Source of the DNA: Methylophaga sp.
GTDB taxonomy: Bacteria; Pseudomonadota; Gammaproteobacteria; Nitrosococcales; Methylophagaceae
DNA: 64,000 bases
Direction of reading: 5' to 3'
Assembly: GCA_002733715.2 (NCBI GenBank)
Contig: NVWQ02000010.1
Coordinates: 1 to 64,000, forward strand
In this document: one piece after another, positions 22,498-45,135 of the stretch
Position numbering within the stretch: position 1 is the first letter of the stretch
Layout of the letters: every line of letters starts with the position of its first letter
Made by a program: the position numbers and the translations under genes
Notes under the pieces: model-generated
What the model was told of the DNA's origin: nothing
Database searches by the model: none
Seen by the model: only the letters and a program-made list of their open reading frames with translations

Positions 22498-24033
22498 ATG
22501 TTCGAACAAACCTTCAAAAACATAGATGACATCCTCCACAAAGACGCAGGCTGTTCTAGCGAGCTGGATTACACCGAGCAAACTTCATGGATGTTATTTT
22601 TAAAATATCTGGATGATTTGGAATATAAAAAATCACTGGAAGCAGAATTAGAAGCTACTCCATACCACTATATCATTGACGAGCAACACCGCTGGAGCCA
22701 ATGGGCTGCGCCTAAAGATGCCGATGGCAACTTTGACCATAACAACACTTTAACCGGTGATGACTTAATGAACTATGTGGATGGCGAATTATTCCCCTAC
22801 CTCAAAGGCTTTAAACAACGTGCCGATAACGCCAACACCATTGAATATAAAATTGGTGAAATCTTTGGTGAAATTAAAAACAAAATCCAAAGTGGTTATT
22901 CACTGCGTGATGCCTTAGAAAAGATTGATGAACTCAGCTTTCGTAGCCAAGCAGAAAAGCATGAACTCTCGCATTTATACGAAAGCAAAATAAAAAACAT
23001 GGGCAATGCTGGGCGCAATGGCGGCGAATATTACACCCCGCGACCCTTAATTCGCGCCATGATTGATGTCTTGCAACCACAAATTGGCGAAACGATTTAC
23101 GATGGCGCGGCAGGTTCAGCCGGATTTTTATGCGAAGCCTTTGATTATTTGCGCCAACGCGAAGGCTTATCCACCAGTGATTTAACCACGCTGCAAGAAA
23201 ACACCTTTTACGCCAAAGAGAAAAAGTCACTGGCCTATGTTATCGCGATTATGAATATGATATTACATGGCATAGAAGCGCCCAATGTCCTACACACCAA
23301 CACCTTGGCAGAAAACTTAGCTGATATTCAACCCAGCCAGCAACATGATATTATTCTCGCCAACCCACCGTTTGGCGGCAAAGAACGTAAAGAAGTGCAA
23401 CAAAACTTCGCCATTAAAACAGGGGAGACCGCTTTTCTGTTCTTGCAACACTTTATTAAAATGCTCAAACCCGGTGGCAGAGCCGCCATTGTCATTAAAA
23501 ACACCTTTTTATCCAATACCGATAACGCTGCCATTGCCCTGCGAAAAGAACTACTGGAAAGCTGCAATCTACACACCGTATTAGATTGCCCCGGCGGTAC
23601 ATTCTTAGGTGCAGGGGTGAAAACTGTGGTGCTGTTTTTCACCAAAGGCGAACCCACGCAAAAGATCTGGTATTACCAGCTGGATGTAGGGCGTAATATG
23701 GGTAAAACTAATCCGCTGAATGATGGGGATTTGACAGAGTTTGTGGAATTGCAAAAGACCTTTGCTGATTCTGATAAGTCTTGGGTAGTCCGCCCTTCGG
23801 CAGGCTCAGGGACCGGTTCGGCAGGCTCAGCCACCGCTGGTTCCGTTGGTTCGGTCCCTGAGCTTGCCGAAGGGGTCGAAGCCAAATGGGACAAAGAGTA
23901 TGACCTATCCGTAAAAACCCCCAACACACCCGAAGAAGCACCCTTGCGTGAGCCTTCGGTGATTATTGAAGAGATTATTGCTTTGGATAAAGAAAGTGAA
24001 GCGATTCTTGCAAATATAAGAGAGTTACTTTAA
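22498..24033 (+). CDS. hsdM: type I restriction-modification methyltransferase subunit HsdM
   Basis: HsdM methylates adenine in the site chosen by HsdS and forms the M2S core of the restriction complex. The 511-residue protein has an N-terminal helical domain (residues 1-150), motif I YDGAAGSAGFL (about residues 200-210) and motif IV ILANPPFGG (about residues 286-294). Residues 432-459 are an odd Gly/Ser/Ala-rich insert encoded by a palindromic repeat (see 23793-23874); the family tail resumes with YDLSVKTPN. The insert is in frame, so the enzyme may remain active. The stop overlaps the hsdS start by one base. Confidence 0.9.
   Translation: MFEQTFKNIDDILHKDAGCSSELDYTEQTSWMLFLKYLDDLEYKKSLEAELEATPYHYIIDEQHRWSQWAAPKDADGNFDHNNTLTGDDLMNYVDGELFPYLKGFKQRADNANTIEYKIGEIFGEIKNKIQSGYSLRDALEKIDELSFRSQAEKHELSHLYESKIKNMGNAGRNGGEYYTPRPLIRAMIDVLQPQIGETIYDGAAGSAGFLCEAFDYLRQREGLSTSDLTTLQENTFYAKEKKSLAYVIAIMNMILHGIEAPNVLHTNTLAENLADIQPSQQHDIILANPPFGGKERKEVQQNFAIKTGETAFLFLQHFIKMLKPGGRAAIVIKNTFLSNTDNAAIALRKELLESCNLHTVLDCPGGTFLGAGVKTVVLFFTKGEPTQKIWYYQLDVGRNMGKTNPLNDGDLTEFVELQKTFADSDKSWVVRPSAGSGTGSAGSATAGSVGSVPELAEGVEAKWDKEYDLSVKTPNTPEEAPLREPSVIIEEIIALDKESEAILANIRELL
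23793..23874. repeat. in-frame palindromic repeat inside hsdM
   Basis: The left arm, 23793-23815 (CTTCGGCAGGCTCAGGGACC core), is complementary to the right arm, 23852-23874 (GGTCCCTGAGCTTGCCGAAG core). A second half-copy lies between them. The length preserves the reading frame. The same repeat family flanks the GIY-YIG insert in hsdR. Confidence 0.8.
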
Positions 24034-25298
24034 TGCTTTGGGATGTAGTTAAATTAGGTGATATATCAGAGCTTATTACTAAAGGCACAACCCCAACTTC
24101 TGTAGGATTTAAGTTTCTTGAAGAAGGTGTTAACTTTATAAAAATTGAGTCAATTTCTTTAGATGGACAGTTCCTGAGCCAAAAATTTGCGAAAATTTCA
24201 AGTGACTGTAATGAAGCACTGAAAAGGTCTCAACTCAAAGAAGGAGATATTTTATTTTCAATAGCTGGTGCTCTAGGAAGGACTGCTCTTGTAACGACTG
24301 ATATTCTACCTGCTAATACTAATCAAGCTTTAGCAATTATTCGGTTAAAAAAAGAAATAAAGATATCTAAGGAATATTTGTTATTAGCATTAATGACAGG
24401 AGTTACATTAGAACAAGTAGAAAAGCACCGAGGAGGAGTTGCTCAGCAGAATTTATCTTTGGGGCAAATGAAAGAGTTTAATATCCCTCTCCCGCCCATC
24501 AACGAACAAAAACGCATCGTCGCCATACTCGATCAAGCCTTTGCCGAGATTGAAAAAGCCCGCGCCAATGCCGAGCAAAACCTAAAAAATGCCCGTGAAT
24601 TATTTGAAAGCTACTTACAGCAAGTTTTTAGCCAGCGTGGTGAGGGGTGGGTTGAATATCGCATGGAAGATAATACATTGCTTCAAATGATTGATGGAGA
24701 TAGGGGAAAGAATTACCCCAAAAAATCTGACTTCTCCGATAAAGAGCACTGTTTATTTTTAAGTACTAAAAATGTACGACCAAATGGTTTTAAATTTGAT
24801 GAAATGGTTTTTATAACGAAGGAGCGTGATAATTTACTTCGTAAAGGAAAGCTAGAAAAAAATGATGTGATTATTACTACAAGAGGTACGATTGGAAATT
24901 TAGCTATCTTTGATGAATCGGTTAATTATGAACATATAAGAATCAATTCAGGAATGTTAATTCTTCGGCCTAATATCAAGAAAATATTACCCTCGTATTT
25001 ATTTGAGATAATGCGTTCTGGAATTGTAAAAAAGCAAATACAAGAAAAGACATCGGGAGCAGCTCAACCTCAGCTTCCAATCAATACATTGAATGCGTTT
25101 TGTTTTCCTGTCCCTAATTCATTAACAGAGCAAAATAAAATAGTAGCTGCGTTAAAAAACCTTGAACATCAAACTAACCAGTTAGGTGCAATATATACAA
25201 ACAAATTGAATGCTCTAGACGAACTAAAAAAATCCATCCTACAAAAAGCCTTTACCGGTGAACTGACCCAAAACACAAGCAAAGGAGCAGCTGCATGA
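24033..25298 (+). CDS. hsdS: type I restriction-modification specificity subunit HsdS
   Basis: HsdS reads a bipartite DNA site through two target-recognition domains. The 421-residue protein has TRD1 (about residues 1-150), a central conserved helix region with PLPPINEQKRIVAILDQ, TRD2 (about residues 205-355) and the second conserved region with SLTEQNKIVAALKNL and the tail KKSILQKAFTGEL. Both halves look complete. The DNA of the recognition domains is more AT-rich than the conserved helices, as expected for exchangeable specificity segments. The stop overlaps the rhuM/fic start by 4 bases (ATGA). Confidence 0.9.
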   Translation: MLWDVVKLGDISELITKGTTPTSVGFKFLEEGVNFIKIESISLDGQFLSQKFAKISSDCNEALKRSQLKEGDILFSIAGALGRTALVTTDILPANTNQALAIIRLKKEIKISKEYLLLALMTGVTLEQVEKHRGGVAQQNLSLGQMKEFNIPLPPINEQKRIVAILDQAFAEIEKARANAEQNLKNARELFESYLQQVFSQRGEGWVEYRMEDNTLLQMIDGDRGKNYPKKSDFSDKEHCLFLSTKNVRPNGFKFDEMVFITKERDNLLRKGKLEKNDVIITTRGTIGNLAIFDESVNYEHIRINSGMLILRPNIKKILPSYLFEIMRSGIVKKQIQEKTSGAAQPQLPINTLNAFCFPVPNSLTEQNKIVAALKNLEHQTNQLGAIYTNKLNALDELKKSILQKAFTGELTQNTSKGAAA

Positions 25299-26284
25299 AT
25301 AATGAAATTTTAATTTATCAAACCGAAGATAATGAAGTTGCGGTGCGGTTGGATGGTGAGCGCGATACCTTGTGGTTAAACCAAAAGCAGATGGCAACCT
25401 TGTTTGACAAGGATGTGCGTACCATTAGTGAACATTTAAAAAACATTTACAAGGAGCAGGAGCTTGATGAGAAGGCAACTGTCCAGAAATTCCGGATAGT
25501 TCAACTGGAAGGAAAGCGGGAGGTTAAGCGGGAGATAGAACATTACAGTTTAGATGCAATTATCTCGGTCGGCTATCGTGTGAATTCTAAAAAAGGCACA
25601 CAGTTTCGCATTTGGGCAACCCAGCGTTTACGCGATTATCTGGTGGATGGTTATGCGATTAACCAGCAACGCTTTGATAGCAATGCAGCAGAGTTAAAAC
25701 AAGCGATTGCATTGATTCGTAAAGCGGCACAATCACCTGAACTGACCGCAGAGGCGGGCAGCGGTTTGGTTGAGATTGTTAGCCGTTATACCCAGACTTT
25801 TTTATGGTTGCAGCAATATGATGAGGGTTTGTTAAATGAGCCTTCAGGTGAGGTGGGTGGCAAATTGCCGACTGTAGATAATGCCATGCACAGTTTAAAT
25901 ACGCTTAAAGCCTCATTGATTGAGCGCGGTGAGGCAACCGATTTATTTGCGCGGGTGCGTGAAGAAGGTTTGGATGCTATTTTTGGTAACCTTGAACAAT
26001 CTGTTTTTGGTGAACCTGCTTATCCAACCATTGAAAGCAAGGCGGCGCATCTGCTTTATTTTGTGGTGAAAAACCATCCCTTTAGTGATGGCAATAAACG
26101 TAGCGGTGCCTTTTTGTTTGTTGATTTTTTACATCGCAATGGTCGATTATTCAATGAGCGTGATGAAGCGGTGATTAATGATACCGGCTTGGCAGCATTG
26201 ACTTTACTGATCGCGGGATCAGACCCCAAACAAAAAGAGATGTTAATTCGATTGGTAATGACGATGTTAGCTGAGGAACAATAG
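25295..26284 (+). CDS. RhuM-Fic fusion protein (virulence RhuM family with Fic/DOC domain)
   Basis: The N-terminal part, about 125 residues (IYQTEDNEVAVRLDGERDTLWL onward, in RhuM style), is followed by a helical linker and a C-terminal Fic/DOC domain. The Fic motif is complete: HPFSDGNKRSGAFLF (about residues 264-278), with the catalytic His. Fic enzymes transfer AMP or another nucleotide part to a target protein. RhuM-Fic genes are often lodged inside hsd operons, but their role there is unknown. The gene overlaps hsdS and sits 3 bases before hsdR, so it is co-transcribed. An inhibitory helix of Fic type was not identified. Confidence 0.8.
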   Translation: MNNEILIYQTEDNEVAVRLDGERDTLWLNQKQMATLFDKDVRTISEHLKNIYKEQELDEKATVQKFRIVQLEGKREVKREIEHYSLDAIISVGYRVNSKKGTQFRIWATQRLRDYLVDGYAINQQRFDSNAAELKQAIALIRKAAQSPELTAEAGSGLVEIVSRYTQTFLWLQQYDEGLLNEPSGEVGGKLPTVDNAMHSLNTLKASLIERGEATDLFARVREEGLDAIFGNLEQSVFGEPAYPTIESKAAHLLYFVVKNHPFSDGNKRSGAFLFVDFLHRNGRLFNERDEAVINDTGLAALTLLIAGSDPKQKEMLIRLVMTMLAEEQ

Positions 26285-26286
26285 GC

Positions 26287-29061
26287 ATGGCGCAACGCAA
26301 TGAAGCCGATACGCGTGCGGAGTTAATTGATCCTAAACTCAAAACTGCTGGTTGGGGTGGGGTTGAAGAGAGCTTTATTCGTCGTGAGGTGATTTGCCCG
26401 GGACGGATATTAACGGGCGGAAAACGTGGCGCGCAGGTCGCTAGTGATTATGTGTTGGTCTATAAAGGCCGCAAGTTAGCGGCAGTTGAGGCAAAACGCG
26501 AGAGTTTGAGTGTTACCGAAGGTGTGCGCCAAGCCAAAGATTATGCTGAGCGTTTGCAGTGTCGCATTGCTTATGCCACTAATGGCCATGAAATTTATCA
26601 GATTGATATGGAAACGGGCGTTGAGGCGTTAGTGGATGATTATCTGTCACCCGATGCCTTGTGGGCATTAAGCTTTGAAGGGGCAGAGCCTGATTATGCG
26701 GCGGGCTGGCGACAACGCTTTGCTGAGATTCCCATTGAAACAAAAAGTGGCAGTTGGCAGCCGCGTTATTATCAAGAAAATGCCATTAATAATACCTTAG
26801 AAGCCATTGCTAAAGGTGAGCAGAAAGTATTGCTGACATTGGCGACGGGCACGGGTAAAACAGCCATTGCTTTTCAGTTGGCGTGGAAGCTGTTTCATAG
26901 CCGCTGGAGTTTAAGCGTTCAAAAGTCACCTAGTGAAGCCAAACGTCGCCCGCGTATTTTGTTTTTAGCCGATCGCAATATTTTAGCTAACCAAGCCTTT
27001 AATGATTTTGCGCCGTTTGGTGAAGATGCCATTGTGCGGATTGAACCAAGTGAGATTAAAAAGAAAGGCCGTGTGCCTAAGAATGCCAGTGTGTTTTTTA
27101 CTATATTTCAGACGTTTATGACTTCGACCCCTTCGACGGGCTCAGGGACCGAAGAAGAAGTGGTGGTGGCTGAGCTTGCCGAAGTCGCCGAAGTCGCCGA
27201 AGTCGCCGAAGCCAGCGTGACGGAAGAAGCCAATGGCTATATGTATATATTACAATGTGCGGACAATAGTTTTTATACGGGAAGCACTCGAAATTTAGTT
27301 TATAGGTTGGATCAACATGAAGCAGGAGAAGGTGCTGCTCATACTAAAAAACGATTACCTATTAAGTTGGTTTATTACGAAACATTTGAAAGAATTGATG
27401 AGGCATTTGCAAGAGAAAAGCAGATTCAGGGATGGAGCAGAGCAAAGAAGTTTGCATTGATTGCTGGGAATATTGAGCGGTTGAAAATATTGGCGGCTTC
27501 TTCGACCCCTTCGACCCCTTCGACGAGCTCAGGGACCGAAGGGGTCGAAGTCTTTGGCGAATATCCTACCGACTTCTTCGATTTTATCATCATAGATGAG
27601 TGCCATCGTGGTGGAGCCAATGATGAAAGTAGCTGGCGGTCTGTGCTGGAGTATTTTAGCCCTGCGGTGCAGTTGGGTTTAACGGCTACGCCTAAGCGTA
27701 AGGATAATGTAGATACTTATGCCTATTTTGGTGAGCCGGTGTATAGCTATACGCTGAAAGAGGGCATTAATGATGGCTTTTTAACGCCGTTTAAAGTGTA
27801 TCCCATTGTCGGCACAATGGATGAGTATGTGTATACACCTAATGATGGCATTGTGATTGAAGGCGAGCCAGAACCGGGGCGGGTTTATAAAGAAGGTGAT
27901 TTTAATCGGATCATTACTATTCCATCACGCGAACAAAAGCGGGTGCAGTATTGGATGGACCGGATTAACCCTCAGCATAAAACCATTGTGTTTTGTGCCA
28001 CGCAAGTTCATGCGGGCATGGTGCGAGATTTTATTAATCAGTATGCTGTGCAAAAAGGCTGGACGAGTAATAGCAATTATTGTGTGCGGGTGACGGCGAA
28101 TGATGGCAAGGCGGGCGAGACTGATTTAAAAATATTCCAAGATAATGAGAAAACCATACCGACTATTTTAACCACCTCACGCAAACTTTCTACGGGGGTT
28201 GATGCCAGAAATGTACGCAATATTGTATTGATGCGACCTTGTAATAATATGATTGAGTTTAAGCAGATCATTGGGCGTGGCACGCGGATGTATGAGGGCA
28301 AAGAGTTTTTTACGGTATTTGATTTTGTGAAAGCGCATCATAATTTTGCTGATCCTGAGTGGGATGGTGAGCCTGATCCATTGGGTGACGGGGAGGATTT
28401 ACCTATTGATGCTTCTGGTTTTCCTGAAGTACCAAGTGATCCAACAACCGAGCCGCCAGAAAAGCCAGAGGAACGCCCAGAGAAGATATTGATTACCCTA
28501 AGTGATGGTAAGCAGCGGCAAATTCAACATATTTCATCGGTGATGTATTGGAATTCTGATGGTACGCCCATCACGGCAAAAGAATTTTTAGAACGTATGT
28601 TTGATGACTTACCCCAGTTTTTTGAAAATGAAGATAAGTTACGTGAGATTTGGAGTGACCCTGATACCCGTGAAACTTTATTGCAGAATTTATCAGAAGC
28701 GGGCTATGACAATGAAAAGCTAGACAGTATGAAAGAGCTGATTGATGCACGGGATAGCGATGTGTATGACGTGTTAGCTTATGTAGCCTATGCCAGTGAG
28801 ACTCGCACACGGCAGCAGCGGGTGGACCAATCTAAACCTGCGATTAACCAACACTTTACTGAGTATCACCAACAAGCCTTTATCGAGTTTATTTTAAAAC
28901 GCTATATTGATGATGGCGTGACGGAATTATCGGTGAAGAAAATGAAAAGTTTGGTTGAGCTTAAATACAATTCAATTAATGATGCTGCGGCTGAGTTTGG
29001 TTCAGCAAAAGTGATTCGTGAAGTATTTGTTGGCTTTCAGCAGTATTTGTATAGAGATTAG
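26287..29061 (+). CDS. hsdR: type I restriction endonuclease subunit HsdR with inserted GIY-YIG domain
   Basis: HsdR gives the complex its translocase and nuclease. The N-terminal nuclease shows Asp in ASDYVLVYKG and the pair VEAKR (residues 61-90). The SF2 motor has Walker A LATGTGKTAIAF (about residues 193-204), the box IIDECHRGG (about residues 435-443) and LGLTATPKR. The C-terminal helical region is normal. Residues about 280-421 do not belong to HsdR: they are a GIY-YIG nuclease domain (about residues 317-395) bounded by palindromic repeats, placed in frame between the Ia-like FFTIFQTFM strand and the DECH box. Without it the protein would be about 782 residues, the usual family length. 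Confidence 0.9.
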   Translation: MAQRNEADTRAELIDPKLKTAGWGGVEESFIRREVICPGRILTGGKRGAQVASDYVLVYKGRKLAAVEAKRESLSVTEGVRQAKDYAERLQCRIAYATNGHEIYQIDMETGVEALVDDYLSPDALWALSFEGAEPDYAAGWRQRFAEIPIETKSGSWQPRYYQENAINNTLEAIAKGEQKVLLTLATGTGKTAIAFQLAWKLFHSRWSLSVQKSPSEAKRRPRILFLADRNILANQAFNDFAPFGEDAIVRIEPSEIKKKGRVPKNASVFFTIFQTFMTSTPSTGSGTEEEVVVAELAEVAEVAEVAEASVTEEANGYMYILQCADNSFYTGSTRNLVYRLDQHEAGEGAAHTKKRLPIKLVYYETFERIDEAFAREKQIQGWSRAKKFALIAGNIERLKILAASSTPSTPSTSSGTEGVEVFGEYPTDFFDFIIIDECHRGGANDESSWRSVLEYFSPAVQLGLTATPKRKDNVDTYAYFGEPVYSYTLKEGINDGFLTPFKVYPIVGTMDEYVYTPNDGIVIEGEPEPGRVYKEGDFNRIITIPSREQKRVQYWMDRINPQHKTIVFCATQVHAGMVRDFINQYAVQKGWTSNSNYCVRVTANDGKAGETDLKIFQDNEKTIPTILTTSRKLSTGVDARNVRNIVLMRPCNNMIEFKQIIGRGTRMYEGKEFFTVFDFVKAHHNFADPEWDGEPDPLGDGEDLPIDASGFPEVPSDPTTEPPEKPEERPEKILITLSDGKQRQIQHISSVMYWNSDGTPITAKEFLERMFDDLPQFFENEDKLREIWSDPDTRETLLQNLSEAGYDNEKLDSMKELIDARDSDVYDVLAYVAYASETRTRQQRVDQSKPAINQHFTEYHQQAFIEFILKRYIDDGVTELSVKKMKSLVELKYNSINDAAAEFGSAKVIREVFVGFQQYLYRD
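27123..27550 (+). mobile_element. repeat-flanked GIY-YIG nuclease cassette inside hsdR
   Basis: The left border has CTTCGACGGGCTCAGGGACC (about 27131-27150) with a partial inverted arm TGAGCTTGCCGAAG and three GAAGTCGCC repeats. The right border (27501-27550) has repeated TTCGACCCC and then CGAGCTCAGGGACCG and GGGGTCGAAG. Between them is a UPF0213-like GIY-YIG domain: GYMYILQCADNSFYTGST, then EAGEGAAHTKKRLP, YYETF, EAFAREKQIQGWSR. An internal ATG at 27241 could start the domain alone. The symmetry suggests a small mobile unit that landed in frame. Confidence 0.6.
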
Positions 29062-45104: not shown

Positions 45105-45135
45105 CGTCATTCCCGCATGTTTTTAGCGGGAATCC
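45105..45135. repeat. palindromic repeat between lpxB and rnhB
   Basis: ATTCCCGC (45109-45116) pairs with GCGGGAAT (45126-45133) around ATGTTTTTA, preceded by CGTC. It belongs to the same family as the hairpins at 52404-52488 and, with a different loop, the one in ribE. It may also act as a terminator for lpxB, though no T run follows. Confidence 0.75.

Follow-up and report, generated by a model that had tools for sequence, protein, structure and literature searches.

A GIY-YIG nuclease cassette bounded by palindromic repeats at one in-frame site of the type I restriction subunit HsdR

Introduction

Nucleases of the Ssn group are site-specific, single-strand GIY-YIG enzymes that are paired with a cognate repeated sequence, the NTS of Neisseria. 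To our knowledge, work on Ssn covers neither a TTCGAC-N2/3-GCTCA specificity nor residence inside HsdR, the restriction subunit of type I restriction-modification (R-M) systems, and we know of no agreed mobilizer for those repetitive extragenic palindromic (REP) elements that tyrosine transposases do not serve. Here, we describe an in-frame insert in the hsdR gene of a Methylophaga sp. (contig NVWQ02000010.1, positions 1 to 64,000; this whole stretch of 64,000 nucleotides is termed the window), in which a UPF0213-like GIY-YIG nuclease domain lies between copies of a REP-like palindrome. As with Ssn, a small GIY-YIG protein is combined with a repeat that is spread through the genome, and by this analogy the two are probably a pair of the Ssn kind.

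A GIY-YIG insert has been described in the HsdR of Methylococcus capsulatus (MCA0838), at about position 800 and with a homologue lacking the insert; a recent insertion was proposed, and the idea of molecular parasites was raised (Dunin-Horkawicz et al. 2006, PMC1564403). That report concerns one case, and the portion of it drawn on here mentions no repeats, whereas the insert considered below occupies residues 279-422, recurs in ten cases at one site, is accompanied by repeats and signs of exchange, and reaches hosts of four named phyla; the comparison with MCA0838 is one of published descriptions (PMC1564403).

REP/RAYT systems (REPtrons) offer a further point of comparison, their enzyme being a REP-associated tyrosine transposase (RAYT) of the IS200/IS605 type (PMC3733652). 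As far as the excerpted text of that survey describes them, REPtrons resemble the present system in having a nuclease gene flanked by tagged hairpins that are found genome-wide, form inverted dimers and are in some cases intragenic; the differences are that a GIY-YIG rather than an HUH tyrosine enzyme is present, and that ACCG, the commonest tail, matches neither the GTAG nor the CGTC tag. Rickettsia palindromic elements and other intragenic REPs with CGTC or GTAG tags are also inserted in genes and encode residues, and no nuclease is described with them in the same excerpts (PMC3733652); an insertion in hsdM reported below is like them, and the hsdR insert is unlike them. CGTC repeats apparently have no dedicated transposase, according to the part of this 2013 survey that was available (PMC3733652).

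Within the literature covered (mostly open-access, titles and abstracts), no GIY-YIG nuclease accompanied by these repeats or located in HsdR was found beyond the 2006 paper. The pairing of nuclease and repeat as such is probably already known. What appears to be new is a fixed in-frame HsdR site common to four phyla, together with discordance between cassette and host gene, of which no description was found.

Results

The cassette and its hairpin repeats

The host gene belongs to the EcoAI/FtnUII family of HsdR proteins (NCBIfam equivalog model NF046051, 782.8 bits against a cut-off of 550). Alignment with HsdR homologues bore out the original prediction of a GIY-YIG cassette foreign to HsdR and read in frame within its motor, and gave precise edges: 432 nt, encoding residues 279-422, lie between FFTIFQTFM and FGEYPTDFFDFIIIDECHRGG (the FGxYP...DECH side), starting right after the ATG of FQTFM and ending right before FGEYP, within 2 nt of the borders first proposed (Table 1). 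When the insert is removed, an HsdR of normal length is left, as had been anticipated, with 780 residues compared with 768 in the NF046051 profile. No intein domain was found among the Pfam matches of HsdR, and the insert reads in frame without a stop.

In the insert alone, Pfam identified PF01541 (E 1.7e-17, profile positions 2-76 of 78) and no other module, with no DNA-binding module adjoining it and no HUH tyrosine transposase. The conserved residues of GIY-YIG nucleases (Y, Y-x-G, R and E) have a catalytic role, and Y171, Y181, G183, R191, H195 and E228 (numbering of the alignment's first row) are invariant in 35 aligned domains; because it is conserved, the domain is probably active. The closest solved chains by sequence are those of the UPF0213 PDB entries 1zg2 (E 5e-13) and 1ywl (E 1e-9), which are free-standing proteins titled hypothetical, whereas the domain described here lies inside HsdR. 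An AlphaFold model of HsdR residues 150-560, based on 35 aligned sequences, contains a separate and confident GIY-YIG domain (predicted local distance difference test, pLDDT, of 91-98 in blocks) between low-confidence linkers, and the motor part of HsdR was modelled with moderate confidence only (mean 69.8; predicted template modelling score, pTM, 0.50). In a fold search, the top hit was an HsdR fragment (3h1t), helicases were also returned, and the UPF0213 entry 1zg2 ranked sixth. An origin from the genome's own GIY-YIG genes was rejected, the best resident gene being 37% identical to the insert.

The palindromes that had been noted at the cassette borders were likewise recovered as three REP-like cores, two forward and one inverted. 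Two 33-bp direct copies, 97% identical and 387 bp (129 codons) apart, bracket the nuclease, and a perfect 16-bp terminal inverted repeat lies outermost. As single-stranded DNA, the right border (27500-27550) forms a strong hairpin that beats 200/200 shuffles (z -4.9); a strong hairpin at the left border was considered and dropped (z -0.9, 36/200 shuffles as good). The repeat unit consists of a variable but paired stem, the core TTCG[AG]C-N2/3-GCTCA and a tail with ACCG as its commonest form. At two variable stem positions, pairing occurs in 247 and 263 of 284 units, which are not mutually independent, compared with 130 and 134 expected. ACCG-like tails are commonest, but the first tail bases are often paired themselves (in 192 and 174 of 284 units at the two positions that follow), and neither the GTAG nor the CGTC tag of the REP super-families appears in the tail consensus.

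The repeats read open in frame and encode linkers rich in Ser, Thr and Gly. A 20-base form (at most two mismatches) occurs five times in the genome, always in the R-M locus (reversed control, 0), and the looser core occurs 15 times, with six copies in the operon and nine elsewhere (reversed control, 0). Because of the nine copies outside the operon, the idea that the repeats are confined to the R-M locus was dropped; it holds for the 20-base form and fails for the core. Another in-frame REP insertion, without a nuclease, is present in hsdM of the same operon; the arms of this dimer are 23 bp long and 96% complementary, it folds better than 200/200 shuffles, and it is not present in the hsdM of a second Methylophaga locus, L042.

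Occupied and empty sites across genomes

In the class to which the window's genome belongs, HsdR was present in 41 of 369 genomes, and 30 loci were read (the window's and 29 others), 11 genomes being unread at the site. The search for empty sites suggested at the outset was productive, with the insert absent from all 29 of the other HsdRs. Their loops are 8-30 residues long, with exactly 12 amino acids in 18/29, and the nearest HsdR body to that of the window (locus L031) is 86% identical over HsdR residues 422-701.

A domain scan of one genome per species (84,980 species), from which 80 of 336 relatives were kept, yielded eight further HsdRs filled at the identical site, a count that is a lower bound: L042 (Methylophaga), L044 (Saccharicrinis), L052 and L073 (Betaproteobacteria), L058 (Bacteroidetes), L068 (Hydrogenophilales), L080 (Scalindua) and L112 (Nitrospira). 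A ninth, L153, came from a scan of 198 genomes of the phylum of L044. Including the window, there are ten carriers, all filled at one site, and the nine outside hosts span four named phyla. The window's gene was the sole filled hsdR seen in 398 genomes of its own phylum (matches at E 1e-18), and no HsdR motif was found in 51 other loci from two phylum scans.

Repeat units stand in frame at both edges in all nine carriers with readable borders, under a slightly relaxed unit pattern; L073 was excluded from this count because its left border is masked. Unit starts in these nine lie 2-16 nt from the left edge for the first unit and 16-37 nt before the right edge for the last. Under an old domain fusion, every close HsdR homologue had been expected to carry the domain at this position and to lack the repeats; instead, the 29 homologues lack the domain and the other carriers have repeats at their readable borders. 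As for vehicles, a recent phage was rejected, as viral contigs yielded no relative (22 pattern matches, 0 confirmed), and so was a recent plasmid (0 of 72,556 plasmid records cover 80% of the filled site; 66 match a part).

Cassette versus host gene

In a tree of 105 domains, nine of the inserted ones group as a single clade (support 99/94), which points to one source, and an upstream linker is common to them by eye, less clearly in the pair formed by the window and L042. The HsdR bodies of the carriers do not form one clade (approximately unbiased [AU] test, p 6.2e-5), with five forced changes on starred branches among nine fused and 29 unfused proteins. Quick HsdR trees without outlying rows (L038, L039 and L041, long or outlying, were omitted, as were rows less than 40% filled from the N and C parts) required four, five and six forced changes for the N part, the C part and the whole protein, respectively; the fused label is only loosely clustered on them, as 27-32, 88-92 and 38-39 of 500 shuffles were as low in the same order. 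The HsdR data also reject the domain tree (AU 5e-6).

The clearest discordance is found among L052, L068 and L073, in whose pairs silent divergence is 0.083 in the cassette versus 0.417 in the host gene, 0.198 versus 0.544, and 0.175 versus 0.517 (p below 1e-8). Silent divergence is thus 2.7-5 times lower in the cassette than in HsdR, and the stretch of low divergence coincides with the cassette. GC content at third codon positions (GC3) is 0.34-0.41 in these cassettes and 0.72-0.75 in the host gene, and the domain lies below its own HsdR at p<0.05 in 8/10 carriers. Free-standing domains can have high GC3 (22/24 phylum loci between 0.61 and 0.89), but same-clade free-standing genes in GC-rich surroundings are often low (6/7 loci, e.g., L115 with 0.41 against 0.68), and therefore composition alone is no proof. 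Jointly, the silent-site and composition discordance in L052, L068 and L073 suggests, as far as sequence comparison goes, that the cassette moves as a unit.

Selection was examined through the ratio of nonsynonymous to synonymous change (omega). Between the window and L042, omega is 0.067 in the domain, 0.162 in the HsdR N part, 0.065 in the readable C part, and 0.29 and 0.54 in the linkers. Of four HsdR segments compared, the one adjoining the insertion site is the best conserved.

Association of the nuclease with the repeat outside HsdR

Free-standing relatives of the domain have a repeat unit within 400 bp in 53/72 loci, compared with 14/259 control windows, and repeat density near the free-standing nuclease is 17.9-fold that beyond 1 kb. 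A harsher test, requiring the exact two-base-spacer core within 200 bp of a gene, gave 16/71 GIY-YIG genes against 18/253 other genes of the same loci (p 6e-4); the reversed control pattern gave zero for two- and three-base spacers and a few for other spacers. In 198 genomes of the phylum of genome G748, the median number of cores is 17 with the domain and 3 without it (p 4e-5), an association that is loose across genomes: 21/176 genomes without a match (E 1e-18) hold at least 15 cores, and 10/22 with a match hold fewer than 15. Seven of the first eight carrier genomes hold 3-14 cores and one holds 52, with reversed-control counts of 0-2 in seven and 5 in G754, where there are 3 cores.

The window's genome also contains REPs of the CGTC type (88 versus 1 in the control). 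Three of its four other small GIY-YIG genes, on contigs C31 (L005), C56 (L002) and C59 (L003), have such REPs within about 100 bp, inverted on both sides of the gene in L003 and L005. One copy adjoins the GIY-YIG domain of uvrC (C69:22239), and one lies inside the window at 45105-45134. In L092, L104 and L109 (labelled Fastidiosibacteraceae), a four-base-spacer version of the repeat is seen, which would fit a repeat that varies with the lineage of its nuclease.

Discussion

On balance, the insert probably represents a nuclease/cognate-repeat cassette that came to lie in a permissive HsdR loop and was exchanged between hsdR alleles. A single-domain GIY-YIG nuclease would sit between copies of the REP-like palindrome that is usual near the free-standing members of its clade, and one cassette lineage would have lodged in the motor loop of EcoAI-family HsdR, between FFTIFQTFM and the DECH box. 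HsdR is presumably still produced, since the repeat units are read through in frame. From there, the cassette may have reached hsdR alleles in several phyla, in part carried along with R-M genes; in one group at least (L052, L068 and L073), the loop would have been replaced or entered by a repeat-bounded unit. By analogy with the Ssn nucleases, the domain may bind and nick its own repeat hairpins as single strands, and repair of the nicks from a cassette-bearing copy or via the repeats could lead to exchange or amplification of cassettes; the 33-bp direct repeats at their 387-bp distance would predict precise in-frame loss. A bolder proposition, that of a splicing-free mobile element which consists of the nuclease domain and its own hairpin repeats, is translated within its host protein, enters a single permissive motor loop in frame, moves between alleles and phyla as a repeat-bounded unit and is driven by the repeat recognition of its nuclease, is possible but rather doubtful. 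The minimal mobile unit envisaged in the original prediction is accordingly retained in part: signs of movement are present in the discordance and the non-monophyletic host bodies, and self-sufficiency is not supported, given one site, one domain clade and the AU value discussed next. The domain is under purifying selection, and the suggestion that it gives HsdR a second nuclease is kept as no more than a possibility.

Several observations weigh against exchange of a cassette between alleles. The domain data are compatible with the HsdR tree of the carriers (AU 0.22, a test of little power with 10 carriers and 112 columns), so that co-inheritance with loss is possible, and domain and HsdR identities correlate across nine carriers (r 0.70), as expected under co-inheritance. 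With all ten inserts at one site and the domains in one clade, this AU result means that much of the spread may reflect co-inheritance, loss or ordinary hsdR recombination. The domain tree has few columns and an unsettled bootstrap, the HsdR body tree contains long rows, and L153 is absent from both. Between the window and L042 there is no discordance, the cassette and its host having diverged equally at silent sites, and the GC3 contrast is not significant in two of ten carriers (L042 and L153). Omega between L052 and L073 is higher in the domain (0.18, from few changes) than in HsdR (0.09 and 0.07). Of the nine carriers with readable borders, seven have inverted outer repeat units, and those of the window and L042 are direct. 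The HsdR frames of L042 and L058 are broken (in L042, a stop codon follows 4766 and the frame changes further on), so that the insert is not tolerated everywhere, unless the breaks stem from assembly errors. No close free-standing copy was found in the nine carrier genomes searched (all but G750), where other matches are at most 43% identical; no second HsdR site with a cassette turned up in the loci read; no target-site duplication was seen, without a formal test; and a co-conversion tract in the flanking protein was sought among carriers and rejected for lack of signal.

An old domain fusion would have the domain join HsdR once, be kept as a second restriction nuclease and be lost often, the border repeats being passengers. 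The single domain clade with its linker shared by eye, the fit of the domain tree to the HsdR tree, purifying selection with catalytic-type residues invariant in the 35 domains, and a weak likeness to the fused linker in the unfused loops of L017 and L026, which is suggestive only and could reflect remnants, are all in keeping with it. Yet a fused ancestor needs, by our count, about 13 losses versus five changes on the HsdR tree, and these losses must restore loops of similar length and wording in unfused lineages; the cassette is also far less diverged than its host in L052, L068 and L073 and of foreign composition there, and repeat units bound it in all nine readable cases. We regard this history as rather unlikely. 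R-M genes move often, which lends some weight to a passive sequence of events in which repeats entered the loop, a nuclease gene became trapped between them, and hsdR recombination after R-M transfer produced the patchiness with no part played by the nuclease. The nuclease-free repeat insertion in hsdM of the same operon agrees with such a course, as does the existence of intragenic REPs (excerpts of PMC3733652), but the low-divergence stretch corresponds to the cassette and not to a longer hsdR tract, and purifying selection acts on the domain itself. This course is unlikely.

Homing deserves separate mention, since the occupancy pattern is of the homing type (one site, 10 filled alleles and 29 empty loops). 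The domain would cut cassette-free hsdR at the loop and be copied in by double-strand-break repair, free of splicing. A single fixed site next to the best-conserved segment, related domains in unrelated HsdR bodies, and cassette exchange in L052, L068 and L073 fit this scheme; among carriers, however, the flanking protein has no extra identity beside the cassette, free-standing relatives accompany the repeat in 53/72 loci, and Pfam finds no DNA-binding module adjoining the catalytic domain. Homing is quite improbable.

For the preferred reading of a repeat-bounded cassette exchanged between alleles, the fixed in-frame HsdR site with its empty and filled alleles makes gain, loss and nuclease dependence measurable. 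More broadly, one GIY-YIG clade is tied here to a non-CGTC repeat, and resident GIY-YIG genes adjoin CGTC repeats; should GIY-YIG nucleases be the missing partner of REPs, this would be directly testable.

Operon context and further gene fusions

The coordinates of the cassette, its repeats and the surrounding operon are given in Table 1.

Table 1. Features of the R-M operon, the hsdR cassette and its repeats (positions in the window; ORF, open reading frame)
Feature	Position	Strand	Evidence
hsdM, same operon	22498-24033	+	ORF list, Pfam
Second in-frame REP insertion, nuclease-free, in hsdM: two + cores, one - core	23793-23874	+	Repeat search, folding
hsdS	24033-25298	+	ORF list, Pfam
RhuM/Fic-domain gene, between hsdS and hsdR	25295-26284	+	ORF list, Pfam, NCBIfam
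hsdR, type I restriction subunit with insert (924 aa)	26287-29061	+	ORF list, NCBIfam, Pfam
Left outer arm, perfect 16-bp terminal inverted repeat	27120-27135	+	Repeat search
Whole in-frame insert, 432 nt, in place of native loop between FQTFM and FGxYP	27121-27552	+	Comparison with homologues
Left 33-bp direct repeat, REP-like core (+) at 27132-27145	27122-27154	+	Repeat and core search
REP-like core, inverted, left of nuclease	27170-27183	-	Core search
GIY-YIG (UPF0213-like) nuclease domain	27232-27495	+	Pfam, PDB sequence match, conserved residues, model, fold search
Right 33-bp direct repeat, REP-like core (+) at 27519-27532	27509-27541	+	Repeat and core search
Right outer arm, 16-bp terminal inverted repeat	27537-27552	-	Repeat search, folding

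The C part of HsdR contains a Cys-rich stretch of CxxC repeats in L042 (5156-5365) and L031, at a place where the window has a stretch rich in Pro and Glu.

Stop-free continuation of a GIY-YIG frame into other coding sequence was also observed outside HsdR. In the Flavobacteriaceae loci L056, L075, L084, L085, L088 and L108, the frame continues into sequence that by eye is like a GHMP-type kinase; Pfam named no kinase in L056, L075 and L084 at 0.001. In L063 (3989-5044), the frame continues into a thiamine-phosphate synthase domain (PF02581). The frame of L082 (3989-5707) likewise reads on without a stop, here into a specificity domain of the HsdS type (PF01420); this is a second point at which the nuclease meets type I R-M genes.

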